Positions 30,429 through 64,000 of a stretch of DNA of 64,000 nt are shown in pieces. The stretch's first letter is position 1. Every line of letters begins with the position of its first letter. The translations under genes were made by a program, and so were the position numbers. Where the stretch lies: positions 1 through 64,000 of the forward strand of contig NZ_FOTT01000003.1 in the NCBI RefSeq assembly GCF_900114655.1, written 5' to 3'. Under the pieces are notes generated by a model. That model made no database searches, was not told the DNA's origin, and was given only the letters and a program-made list of their open reading frames with translations. This DNA comes from Candidatus Frackibacter sp. WG13. Lineage in GTDB: Bacteria > Bacillota > Halanaerobiia > Halobacteroidales > Acetohalobiaceae.

Positions 30429-30496
30429 TTTAGAAATGTTTTAATTGTCAATTGTAAATTGTCAACTGTCAATTATTAAAAATTGGGGTGATAAAA

Positions 30497-31309
30497 ATGT
30501 TAAAAGATTTAAAGGTTAAGAATCATAAGCAGATAATTGAGGTAGGAGATGTAAAGATTGGTGGCGACGAATTAGTGATTATGGCTGGGCCTTGTGCAGT
30601 TGAAAGTAGAGAACAGATTCTTGAGGCAGCGGAGCATGTTAAAGCTAATGGAGGCCAAATATTAAGAGGGGGAGCATTTAAACCGCGTACTTCGCCATAT
30701 AGCTTCCAAGGTTTAGGGGAAGAAGGGCTGAAATTATTAGCTGAAGCTAGGGAGAGAACAGGACTTAAAATTATTACTGAAGTGTTAGATTCAGAAGATC
30801 TTGAATTAGTAGACAATTATGCTGATATTTTGCAGATCGGTTCTCGGAATATGCAAAATTATGGTTTGTTAAAGAAGTTAGGAAAGGTTGATACACCAGT
30901 AATGCTTAAAAGAGGTTATGCTGCAACAGTTAAAGAATGGTTATTATCAGCTGAATATGTTATTTCTCATGGAAATCCGAATGTTATACTTTGTGAAAGA
31001 GGGATTAGAACTTTTGAAACAGCTACTCGGAACACTTTAGATCTAAATGCCATCGCTTTAGTTAAAGAATTAACCGATTTACCAGTAATTATAGATCCTA
31101 GCCATGGTACAGGAAAGAGAAGTTTAGTAAATCCTTTAGCTAAGGCAGGAATTAGCGTAGGAGCTGATGGTATTATTGTAGAGGTGCATCCTAATCCTGA
31201 GGAGGCTCTTTGCGATGGTGAGCAGTCATTAACTCCAAATGATTTTACTTCATTAATAGATGATTTGGATAAGGTAGCTAAAGCAGTGGATAAAAGATTA
31301 ATTATTTAG
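30497..31309 (+). CDS. aroF: 3-deoxy-7-phosphoheptulonate (DAHP) synthase
   Basis: This enzyme condenses phosphoenolpyruvate and erythrose 4-phosphate, the first step of aromatic amino acid synthesis. The 270-residue type I-beta protein has [54 protein letters not shown] and [14 protein letters not shown]. The ATG at 30497 is chosen over the GTG at 30488 because GGGG at 30485-30488 then has normal spacing. It stands alone behind two Phe-specific T-boxes, so expression should rise when Phe-tRNA is uncharged. Confidence 0.94.
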
Positions 31310-33770: not shown

Positions 33771-34343
33771 ATGAAGAGTCGCAAATTTTTAAGAAGAGGA
33801 TTAGTGTTAACAGTAATGGTTTTATTGTTGGTGTTAACTGTGATTGGATGTTCTCCTCAAGCAACTGACCAAGCAGAGGATGGGGCGCAAGATGAGGCTC
33901 AAGACACTGCTGATGCTGCTCAAAATGAGGAGAATAAACAGAATGCTGAAAGAGTAGCAAAATTAGAAGAAAAATTAAAAGTAGTTACTCAGGATAATTC
34001 GGATGGTAAAGGTTGTATCGGATGTCACGAAGCGGGTAGTGAATATAGTTTACAAAAGGAGATTGATGGTATAGAAGGACATCCGCAAGTAGAAGCTAAA
34101 GAATTATCAGATTGCATGCAATGTCATGCCAGTGGGAACCTTGCTTTTAAAAGATTAATTCATGAGAAACATCTTGTTGAAGGGGATCACTATAAAGAAG
34201 AGTATGATAAGAACTGTATTAATTGTCATAAGATTTCTGAGAACGGTGAGATTAACGTAAGAGGTTTAGACGGTAAAAATGGAGAAGATAAAGGAAATGG
34301 TGGTAACGAAGACACTGAAGGAAACGGTAATGGCAACGAATAA
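33771..34343 (+). CDS. Triheme c-type cytochrome lipoprotein
   Basis: A 190-residue exported protein with a signal peptide ending in lipobox VIGC (Cys27), then an acidic Ala/Asp/Gln linker. Three heme-binding sites follow: CIGCH, CMQCH and CINCH. The tail is rich in Gly, Asn, Asp and Glu. It is inferred to be a lipid-anchored electron carrier outside the cytoplasmic membrane. A related five-heme lipoprotein lies at 60490. No cytochrome maturation or terminal reductase genes are nearby, so the partner is unknown. Confidence 0.8.
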   Translation: MKSRKFLRRGLVLTVMVLLLVLTVIGCSPQATDQAEDGAQDEAQDTADAAQNEENKQNAERVAKLEEKLKVVTQDNSDGKGCIGCHEAGSEYSLQKEIDGIEGHPQVEAKELSDCMQCHASGNLAFKRLIHEKHLVEGDHYKEEYDKNCINCHKISENGEINVRGLDGKNGEDKGNGGNEDTEGNGNGNE

Positions 34344-60380: not shown

Positions 60381-60489
60381 CACTGTATTAATTAAAAAAT
60401 AGCTTAGAAGCTAATAATATATTAGATTTGATTTATAATAAGTAATGTAGATTTATTTTACAAAATTACATTACATAGGGGTGGAATTC

Positions 60490-61566
60490 ATGAAAAAGTT
60501 TTTATTAATCGTATTAACCTTAATCATGGTATTATCTTTAGCAGCATGTGCTGGAAATCAAAATGCTAATGATAATAATGCAGCTGAAGATAATACAAAT
60601 AATAATGCTGCTGAGCAACAAAAGCAACAAGTTCAAGAAGATGAAGAACTAGGTGACTTAACAAAAGTCAGATTAATCTCTGAAGACTGGAAAGAATCTG
60701 GTCATCAGTATGCTATCGTCGATGTAGCCGAAAGAGGAAAGCCATGTTCTAATTGTCATGATGGAAATGGATTTAATGCCCAAAATAAAGAAGAGTTTAA
60801 GGCAGAGCATGTTACAGGGATTGATTGTCAAGCATGTCATAGCGATGTAGGTGCAGAATTAATTAAAAATGGTGAAGTTGAGTTGCCATTTTTAGATGAG
60901 CCATATGAAGCTGGAAGAGGTGCTGTTTGTATGGCGTGTCATAATGGTAGAAGGAATCCATCAGAGCTATTTGAGGATTCAAAAGCCAACCAATTAGAGA
61001 AGTTTACTTATCCTCACTATAGTATGGCAGCTGCATTGCTTACTGGGAAAGGTGGTATGGAAATACCTAGAGAGGAATATAGCACTTCATCTGGACATCC
61101 CGGTCTAGACAATACATGTGCAAGCTGTCATATGATAGAAGCTGAAGAAGGATATGAACAACATACTTTTGTAATGGAAGAGGAAGCTATTGAGCAGGTA
61201 TGTAGCAAGTGCCATTCTGATATTGACACATTTAACTTAAATGGATATCAAGATGAGACGAAAGAAAGATTAGAAAAATTAAAGAAAGCAGTTTTAGAAG
61301 CCACTGGTGCTGCTGAAATTGATTCATATCACGGAGGGTTTTTATTTAAAGATGAAAATGGGGAAGAAATTAAGGATATCCCACATGAAGCATATGTTGC
61401 TGCCTATAACTGGAAGCTAGTAAAAGGAGATGGCAGCTATGGTGTTCATAATCCTAAGTACGCTAAAGATTTATTAGAAAAATCATATGAATTTTTAACT
61501 AATGGAACTACACAAGGTGAGGATACAAAAAATAATGGAGATGATAACCAAGAGAATAATGAATAG
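60490..61566 (+). CDS. Pentaheme c-type cytochrome lipoprotein
   Basis: A 358-residue exported protein. The ATG at 60490 gives a signal peptide ending in lipobox LAAC (Cys20); a GTG at 60481 is less likely. An Asn/Ala/Gln-rich linker precedes five heme motifs: CSNCH, CQACH, CMACH, CASCH and CSKCH. The C-terminal region after residue 250 has HGGFLFKDENG and ends in an acidic Asn-rich tail. It is inferred to be a lipid-anchored multiheme electron carrier, related in layout to the triheme protein at 33771. No reductase partner is visible. Confidence 0.82.
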   Translation: MKKFLLIVLTLIMVLSLAACAGNQNANDNNAAEDNTNNNAAEQQKQQVQEDEELGDLTKVRLISEDWKESGHQYAIVDVAERGKPCSNCHDGNGFNAQNKEEFKAEHVTGIDCQACHSDVGAELIKNGEVELPFLDEPYEAGRGAVCMACHNGRRNPSELFEDSKANQLEKFTYPHYSMAAALLTGKGGMEIPREEYSTSSGHPGLDNTCASCHMIEAEEGYEQHTFVMEEEAIEQVCSKCHSDIDTFNLNGYQDETKERLEKLKKAVLEATGAAEIDSYHGGFLFKDENGEEIKDIPHEAYVAAYNWKLVKGDGSYGVHNPKYAKDLLEKSYEFLTNGTTQGEDTKNNGDDNQENNE

Positions 61567-62196: not shown

Positions 62197-62290
62197 AGTT
62201 TTGCTTGACAATAAAAAGAAAGTATATTATCATGAGTGTAACAGGTTTTAGTACTTATATATAGACATTGACCCAGAAAGGGGATTGATA

Positions 62291-62515
62291 ATGGAAACGC
62301 GCATAGATGAAGACTACGTAGTAATTAAAGCTTTAGAAGACGGGGTTACAATTATCGGTTTAACTCGTGGTAAGAATACTAAATTTCATCATACTGAAAA
62401 GTTAGATGAGGGAGAAGTAATGTTAGCTCAATTTACAGAGCATACTTCGGCAATTAAGATTAGAGGTAAAGCAAAGATTATTACTGAACATGGCGAAGTG
62501 GAGTCTGACGGTTAA
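62291..62515 (+). CDS. mtrB: Trp RNA-binding attenuation protein (TRAP)
   Basis: TRAP forms an 11-subunit ring that, when loaded with tryptophan, wraps RNA carrying GAG/UAG triplets and so represses trp genes. The 74-residue sequence is unmistakable: [50 protein letters not shown] and ITEHGE. Residues known in Bacillus TRAP for Trp contact (Thr and Gly in [12 protein letters not shown]) and RNA contact (the Lys and Arg of KIRGKAK) are kept. The ATG at 62291 has AAGGGG eight bases upstream; an in-frame TTG at 62285 is less likely. The gene lies about 80 bp upstream of a TRAP-binding leader with no terminator between them. Confidence 0.95.
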
Positions 62516-62593
62516 TTTGATAAATTGATTAGTTGCTAGTTTAGTCAAAAGATGAGAGTTGGGAAGAGTTGAGTATAGACAATTAAATATTAA

Positions 62594-62657
62594 GAGATGA
62601 GTTGAGTTTAGTTGAGTTTAGTTGAGTTTAGTTGAGTTGAGATTAGATTAGGAAGAG
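62594..62657 (+). promoter_or_regulatory. TRAP-binding site: 12 GAG/UAG triplets in 5-nt register plus one
   Basis: GAG or TAG begins at 62594, 62599, 62604, 62609, 62614, 62619, 62624, 62629, 62634, 62639, 62644 and 62649, each separated by exactly two bases; a thirteenth follows at 62655 after three. The TRAP ring binds eleven such repeats. Weaker scattered triplets lie upstream (62566, 62571, 62576). Confidence 0.93.
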
Positions 62658-62798
62658 AATTCTTTAGTATGATTCTGTCATAGGTATATTATGTCTAATT
62701 TAGAATTTATAGACATGGTTAATTATCTATATTCAGAGGTGAATTAGTGCATCTATTCATATTAAAGATGATGATTAATCTATGAACCAACGAATATA
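62652..62798 (+). other. trp leader between the TRAP site and the terminator
   Basis: A stretch of about 145 nt with no gene. It contains a small hairpin ATGTCTA/TAGACAT (62691-62697 with 62710-62716). The terminator's 5' arm carries CTCAA, which can pair with the many GTTGAG copies in the TRAP site, a plausible antiterminator that bound TRAP would prevent (inference). Confidence 0.45.
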
Positions 62799-62826
62799 AG
62801 CCAGGCTCAATTGAGCCTGGCTTTTT
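62799..62826 (+). terminator. trp attenuator terminator
   Basis: AGCCAGGCTCAA pairs perfectly with TTGAGCCTGGCT (62799-62810 with 62811-62822), followed by TTTT. It lies between the TRAP site and the first trp-region ORF. Confidence 0.88.
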
Positions 62827-62916
62827 CTGGTATGGAGGTGGTAAATTAATTCGATTAGAAGTTAGCGGCAAGGAGTGCTAAGAAGCACAAAGATAATTGC
62901 TAACAGTTAATATAAG

Positions 62917-62952
62917 TAGTTTGAGATTAGAGAGGAGTTGAGATGAGATGAG
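62917..62952 (+). promoter_or_regulatory. Second TRAP-type triplet cluster over the ribosome-binding site
   Basis: TAG/GAG triplets occur at 62917, 62923, 62928, 62932 or 62935, 62940, 62945 and 62950. They cover the GAGGAG ribosome site (62932-62937) and the ATG at 62948. The last four keep 5-nt register. This suggests translational repression by TRAP in addition to attenuation. Confidence 0.7.
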
Positions 62953-63178
62953 TCAACCTGCTAGAGAGTTATATCCTTTGGTAGGGCGTAACAAGGAGTT
63001 AGAGAAGAGTATAATTCAGATTGACAGAGTTAAAATTGGTGATAGTAAGCCGGTGATTATGGCAGGACCTTGTGCTGTTGAAAGCAAAGAACAACTATTT
63101 ACTACAGCAAAGGTCGTTGCAGAAGCTGATGGCGTATCAGAAAGCTTTAGGAAGGAAGTTGGAGATGTATTATCCTAA
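62948..63178 (+). pseudogene. Truncated DAHP synthase remnant translationally coupled to trpE
   Basis: A 76-codon frame whose residues 26-52 ([21 protein letters not shown] and onward) match the N-terminus of type I-beta DAHP synthase such as the one at 30497. Homology then ends abruptly after AKVVAEADG, and the frame stops 17 codons later. The rest of the roughly 270-residue enzyme is missing, so it cannot be active. It has a proper GAGGAG site and ATG, and its stop overlaps the trpE start by 14 bp. The retained start may serve as a TRAP-controlled coupling leader for trpE. Confidence 0.8.
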
Positions 63179-64000
63179 AAAGGAAGAATTCATAACTAAA
63201 GCTGAGGAAGGAAATTTAATTCCGGTCTATTGTGAGGTAGTAGCTGATATGGAGACTCCGGTGTCGGCATTTAAGAAGTTAGGAGATACTGAATACTCTT
63301 ATTTGCTCGAGAGTGTAGAAGGAGGTCAGAAGGTAGGACGTTACTCTTTTATTGGTGGTAAGCCATTCTTGACTTTTAGTTATCAAGATGGAGTGGTGAC
63401 TATTGAGAAGAATGGAAGTATTGAAGAGTATAATACTGACCATCCATTAAAAGAGTTAGAAGATATCCTGGCTAAGTATCAACCAATGGAACTTGCTGAT
63501 TTACCAAGATTTTATGGTGGGGCGGTTGGATATTTAGGTTATGACCTAGTTACTTCATTTGAAGAAATAGAATTAATGGCTTCATCAGGATTAGATATTC
63601 CAAATAGTCTATTCATCTTGACTGATACTATCTTAATCTTTGACCATGTCAAGCATAAGATCAAGATAGTGGCTAATACTTTGGTGGAAGATAATCCAGA
63701 GGAAGCTTATCAGCAAGCAATCAATAAGATTAATAAGATTAGAAAAAGGCTTAAAGTTGATTCTAAAAGCTCGTTTGCGTTAGCTAATAATAAGCAGCCA
63801 GAAAATATTGAATTTAAGTCTAATATGAATCAAGAAGAATTTATGCATAAAGTAAAGCAGGCTAAAGAGTATATCAGGGCAGGGGATATCTTTCAAGTCG
63901 TTCTTTCACAAAGATTAGAGGCAGAGATAACAGTTCAACCTTTTGAAGTCTATCGGGTATTACGACGGATTAATCCATCGCCTTATATGTATTATCTTAA
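63165..64000 (+). CDS. trpE: Anthranilate synthase component I (3' truncated by the window edge)
   Basis: TrpE converts chorismate and ammonia or glutamine to anthranilate, the first step of tryptophan synthesis. The frame is open from the ATG at 63165 to the right edge, showing 278 residues. Visible features are LIPVYCEVVADMETPVSAFKKL, the Trp feedback site LLES in YSYLLESVEGG, GRYSFIG, GGAVGYLGYDLV and GDIFQVVLSQRL. It overlaps the DAHP synthase remnant by 14 bp, so its translation is probably coupled to that frame and hence to TRAP. The catalytic C-terminal half lies beyond the window. Confidence 0.93.
   Translation, partial: MYYPKKEEFITKAEEGNLIPVYCEVVADMETPVSAFKKLGDTEYSYLLESVEGGQKVGRYSFIGGKPFLTFSYQDGVVTIEKNGSIEEYNTDHPLKELEDILAKYQPMELADLPRFYGGAVGYLGYDLVTSFEEIELMASSGLDIPNSLFILTDTILIFDHVKHKIKIVANTLVEDNPEEAYQQAINKINKIRKRLKVDSKSSFALANNKQPENIEFKSNMNQEEFMHKVKQAKEYIRAGDIFQVVLSQRLEAEITVQPFEVYRVLRRINPSPYMYYL

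Follow-up and report, generated by a model that had tools for sequence, protein, structure and literature searches.

A predicted TRAP attenuation circuit in which the regulator gene mtrB heads the trp operon in Candidatus Frackibacter and related Halanaerobiales

TRAP is a tryptophan-sensing RNA-binding protein whose action on the trp genes is a textbook case of attenuation, and it is known mainly from Bacillus, where the regulator is not linked to its target. In the case of the B. subtilis trpEDCFBA operon, TRAP exerts attenuation as well as translational control of trpE (PMC3913778, PMC11255114), and at trpG, trpP and ycbK it represses at the ribosome-binding site (PMC11255114). The locus described here lies at the end of the window, i.e. 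the whole 64,000-nucleotide stretch of DNA that was analysed, and is predicted from sequence to have in common with the B. subtilis trp system the TRAP ring protein, the (G/U)AG repeats with spacers of 2-3 nt and the mutually exclusive antiterminator and terminator; an additional translational control of trpE is predicted as well. It differs in three respects: mtrB opens the operon, whereas it is part of a separate mtrAB operon in B. subtilis; the triplet array and the terminator are about 140 nt apart; and trpE is apparently controlled via an upstream overlapping ORF rather than via a hairpin that sequesters its Shine-Dalgarno (SD) sequence. As in B. subtilis trpG, trpP and ycbK, the triplets of a second site overlap an SD sequence and start codon, so that TRAP, once bound, would stand directly in the way of the ribosome, but the target is a remnant of aroF (or, in relatives, an ORF of 15-18 codons) that overlaps trpE. 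The mtrAB operon of the Bacillaceae contains the same regulator gene, but there mtrA lies upstream and trpE is distant or unseen. Regulation of this kind is known, and what is new is the arrangement, with the regulator gene in front and a proposed coupling ORF. We found no description of TRAP in the Halanaerobiales or of a regulator-first layout in a literature that mainly concerns Bacillus and that was covered incompletely, so that an earlier report is possible. The features of the locus are, in order:

62205 to 62233, + strand: sigma-A type promoter (TTGACA-17-TATCAT, 11/12 consensus), proposed for mtrB, leader and trp operon
62291 to 62515, + strand: mtrB, encoding TRAP (74 aa; Pfam PF02081, NCBIfam NF009724, TRAP structures)
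62594 to 62657, + strand: predicted TRAP site 1, 13 (G/U)AG triplets that double as the antiterminator strand
62798 to 62823, + strand: intrinsic terminator (attenuator), a stem of 11 pairs (7 GC) followed by a U tract
62918 to 62952, + strand: predicted TRAP site 2, seven triplets, the final five at exact 5-nt spacing, covering the SD sequence (GAGAGGAG) and start codon of the aroF remnant
62948 to 63178, + strand: 76-codon ORF, truncated DAHP synthase (aroF) remnant and proposed coupling ORF (Pfam PF00793, NCBIfam, AroF alignment)
63165 to 64000, + strand: trpE, continuing beyond the window and followed by trpD, C, F, B and A

The mtrB product of this salt-loving bacterium is a member of the TRAP family on sequence grounds, and Trp-dependent RNA binding would be expected of it. 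It scores 138.9 bits against the Pfam TrpBP family (PF02081, cut-off 21.3) and 141.3 against the NCBIfam MtrB equivalog (NF009724, cut-off 117), which confirms the claim of an earlier note on this DNA that the gene encodes a clear TRAP, and it matches TRAP structures including 1wap and 1c9s. A profile search of the 2.77-Mb genome recovers a single copy. Aligned with what we take to be the B. subtilis TRAP sequence, the protein is 66% identical over 73 aa, without gaps and with identical numbering, and the residues that presumably contact RNA or tryptophan (K37, K56, R58, T25, T30 and S53 in B. subtilis numbering) are all present; the conserved stretch of contact residues is also seen in the alignment to the PDB chains.

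Site 1 begins 78 nt past the mtrB stop codon. It consists of twelve triplets at exact 5-nt spacing (62594, 62599 and so on to 62649), as the earlier note had stated, to which a 13th can be added that starts at 62655 and ends at 62657; the array is of the kind that characterizes a TRAP attenuator, i.e. about 11 (G/U)AG repeats with 2-3 nt spacers upstream of trp genes. Exact-period matches of four triplets occur 11 times in the window where 0.22 are expected, a number that none of 100 shuffles equals, and the longest triplet chain in the leader (13) compares with a maximum of 7 among 2000 dinucleotide shuffles. Sites 1 and 2 together contain all exact five-triplet matches of the genome. One chosen variant with 6-nt spacing yields no further genomic site, and trpG, which is located on another contig, is without a triplet chain longer than two, unlike its B. 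subtilis counterpart. TRAP may thus be a single-operon regulator here, although sites of other, mixed spacings might have escaped the search. The anti-TRAP gene rtpA has no match in this genome; anti-TRAP matches in three relatives were rejected, being weak, below the cut-off and situated in frames of 377-387 codons.

A terminator had been placed directly after the array in the earlier reading; it is indeed present, but at the distance given above. The terminator scan finds no terminator-like site between mtrB and site 1, in agreement with the statement that none separates the gene from the leader. In the predicted leader fold the array engages in long-range pairing with the terminator region (z = -3.8). 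With a free array the terminator has a computed probability of 0.09; if the triplets are constrained to remain single-stranded, as they would be under bound TRAP, the value is 0.90. Replacement of the array by 150 random segments of the window gives a mean of 0.97 and a minimum of 0.92, none being as low as the real leader, and shuffled arrays likewise give a mean of 0.97. A measure of nascent pairing is less specific: among 150 random arrays four equal the real one, and among 150 shuffled arrays twelve do so. Throughout the order (13 genomes) this predicted pairing of the terminator's 5' arm with the array, which precedes synthesis of the 3' arm, has values of 0.44-0.91, but at equilibrium a free array strongly disrupts the terminator (P < 0.3) only in loci L082, L095, L099 and L102. 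Several other genomes have an equilibrium terminator probability of at least 0.9 despite the nascent pairing, which implies that a switch in those genomes would have to be kinetic. In these folding models the array forms an antiterminator that excludes the terminator, as an attenuator requires, and the leader is very probably a TRAP attenuation circuit for the trp operon, in which termination would depend on tryptophan and TRAP. An Rfam scan of the 58-64 kb part of the window detected neither a T-box nor any other convincing RNA family; the three matches that it gave, all to eukaryotic families, were below threshold and were discarded. Elsewhere in the window, CxxCH-containing ORFs were observed at 60481-61566 and 33771-34343, the former of which matches multihaem cytochrome c families.

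An 11/12 site of the form TTGACA-17-TATNAT is located 5' of mtrB in 13 of 13 genomes of the order, and no site of at least 10/12 occurs in any of them from the second half of mtrB to +90. Among 2000 mononucleotide shuffles of the upstream region of the window, 14 contain an 11/12 site. Since the strong promoter 5' of mtrB stands alone and is conserved throughout, mtrB, leader and trp genes are likely co-transcribed, and the promoter prediction lends support to the earlier idea that one promoter serves mtrB and the leader.

The earlier note had also proposed a comparison of mtrB-trp synteny. Each of the 13 genomes of the order has mtrB with the trp genes downstream, directly adjacent in 12 of them and about 2 kb apart in G005, so that the linkage is lineage-wide. 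The named relatives belong to the Halanaerobiales, Halobacteroidaceae (NCBI taxonomy), consistent with the lineage that had been guessed from the letters. At the level of the class, mtrB is present in 47 of 59 genomes, the 13 included. Of the 22 loci read outside the order, just two have a trp gene next to mtrB, namely those of G045 (trpB) and G050 (trpE), where triplets and a terminator are found too; judged by reading the translations at these 22 loci by eye, mtrB there mostly precedes what are presumably accDA or pfkA-pyk. Among 80 named loci, trp matches within 1.5 kb downstream of mtrB are confined to Halanaerobiales records, and Bacillus-type loci carry mtrA just upstream of mtrB with trpE, where seen, at 5.9-7.3 kb. 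Several individual loci show additional features. A chain of nine (G/T)AG triplets just 5' of trpD in G004 (L098, about +2753 from the end of the mtrB match) is a possible extra TRAP site, and two loci with two trpB copies in the cluster have six-triplet chains just 5' of the first copy (L105, about +5187; L106, about +4922). In G045 (L173) mtrB is followed by triplets, a terminator and then trpB, and a further cluster of triplets lies at the trpB start codon. In G044 (L172) mtrB almost directly precedes an aroA-like (EPSP synthase) ORF that is followed by an aroF match, that is, a different linkage to the aromatic pathway.

The core of the earlier reading, a regulator beside its target, is supported by the above, but site 2, the aroF remnant and the coupling of an overlapping ORF to trpE had been missed. 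A chain score of at least 6, as for site 2, is reached in 2 of 2000 shuffles; the site has only 5-7 triplets, versus 11 in the B. subtilis leader. The aroF remnant spans only positions 5-43 of the 270 of PF00793, leaving the catalytic domain incomplete, matches the NCBIfam DAHP synthase at the N-terminus and aligns to the full-length AroF of relatives; the deletion is known from one assembly. The remnant overlaps the start of trpE by 14 nt in a different frame, and a purine-rich sequence upstream of trpE might permit independent initiation.

With G005 set aside because of its insertion, an ORF with an SD sequence and triplets that overlaps or abuts trpE is found in 11 of the other 12 genomes, whereas G006 has no ORF of the coupling type before trpE. 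In six genomes of the sister family it has 15-18 codons, is preceded by AGGAG, carries a cluster of 4-6 triplets and overlaps trpE by 14-17 nt; shuffles of these six yield an ORF with SD and ATG overlapping trpE in 4-41 of 2000 cases. In G004 an intact aroF abuts trpE. The corresponding ORF of G001-G003 is an aroF homologue of 271-281 codons with alterations in motifs that are intact in G004, and, judged by the known active sites of DAHP synthase, these three proteins are probably catalytically dead. Between L095 and L096 dN/dS is 0.26 for the aroF homologue and 0.10 for trpE, which suggests that the former is still under selection. The trp-operon homologues of L095, L096 and L097, with altered catalytic motifs and signs of purifying selection, are possible pseudoenzymes.

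Three other explanations have to be weighed. The triplets of site 1 could be a product of chance or a simple repeat without relation to TRAP. The middle of the array is indeed a GAGTTTAGTT tandem repeat, possibly generated by slippage, but relatives carry arrays of other sequence that obey the same triplet rule in the same position, the TRAP gene adjoins the array and the array participates in the predicted leader fold, so that we consider this explanation extremely improbable. Somewhat less remote, yet still improbable, is that the leader has its own promoter and that mtrB and trp adjoin without co-transcription. A promoter-like site is present within mtrB (62432-62460), but it is a weak 9/12 match of a type that occurs at chance frequency (7 observed, 6.7 expected), and none of at least 10/12 exists in the tested stretch of the 13 genomes, all of which have conserved the mtrB promoter.

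The third explanation concerns trpE only and deserves more weight, although we judge it rather unlikely: attenuation at site 1 would be real, with site 2 and the aroF remnant being relics and trpE being translated from its own ribosome-binding site. A remnant that lacks most of DAHP synthase looks like a decaying pseudogene, the more so because full-length genes are present elsewhere (one at 30488-31309 of the window), and G006, a member of the order, has a direct SD sequence for trpE in place of such an ORF. Against this, exact five-triplet matches occur at just two loci in the genome, of which site 2 is one; the deletion has left both the reading frame and its 14-nt overlap with trpE in place, a configuration also seen in three relatives; and the sister family has short ORFs in the same placement. 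We therefore propose, tentatively and with slightly less than even confidence, that TRAP controls trpE via a coupling ORF, the frame of the remnant having been kept for this purpose and the 15-18 codon ORF of the sister family playing the same part. In the family of the present genome the ORF would be an aroF gene whose catalytic function disappeared in several members and which was reduced here to 76 codons.

The circuit may then operate as follows. Transcription from the single promoter 5' of mtrB would proceed through mtrB, the leader and trpEDCFBA. At low tryptophan TRAP would be inactive and the array would pair with the terminator's 5' arm, allowing RNA polymerase to read through; at high tryptophan Trp-loaded TRAP would wrap the array, the terminator would form and the mtrB message alone would be produced. 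On transcripts that have read through, TRAP may bind site 2 and bar the ribosome from the aroF-remnant ORF, and because this ORF extends 14 nt into trpE, translation of trpE would be expected to drop by coupling.

The position of the switch would keep TRAP supplied while the trp operon is off, and the locus is a small natural model in which the linkage of a regulator to its target can be studied. Through the conserved overlapping ORF, TRAP may have a means of controlling the translation of trpE. If this is true, the decay of aroF represents a case in which the function of an enzyme was lost while its reading frame was retained for regulation.
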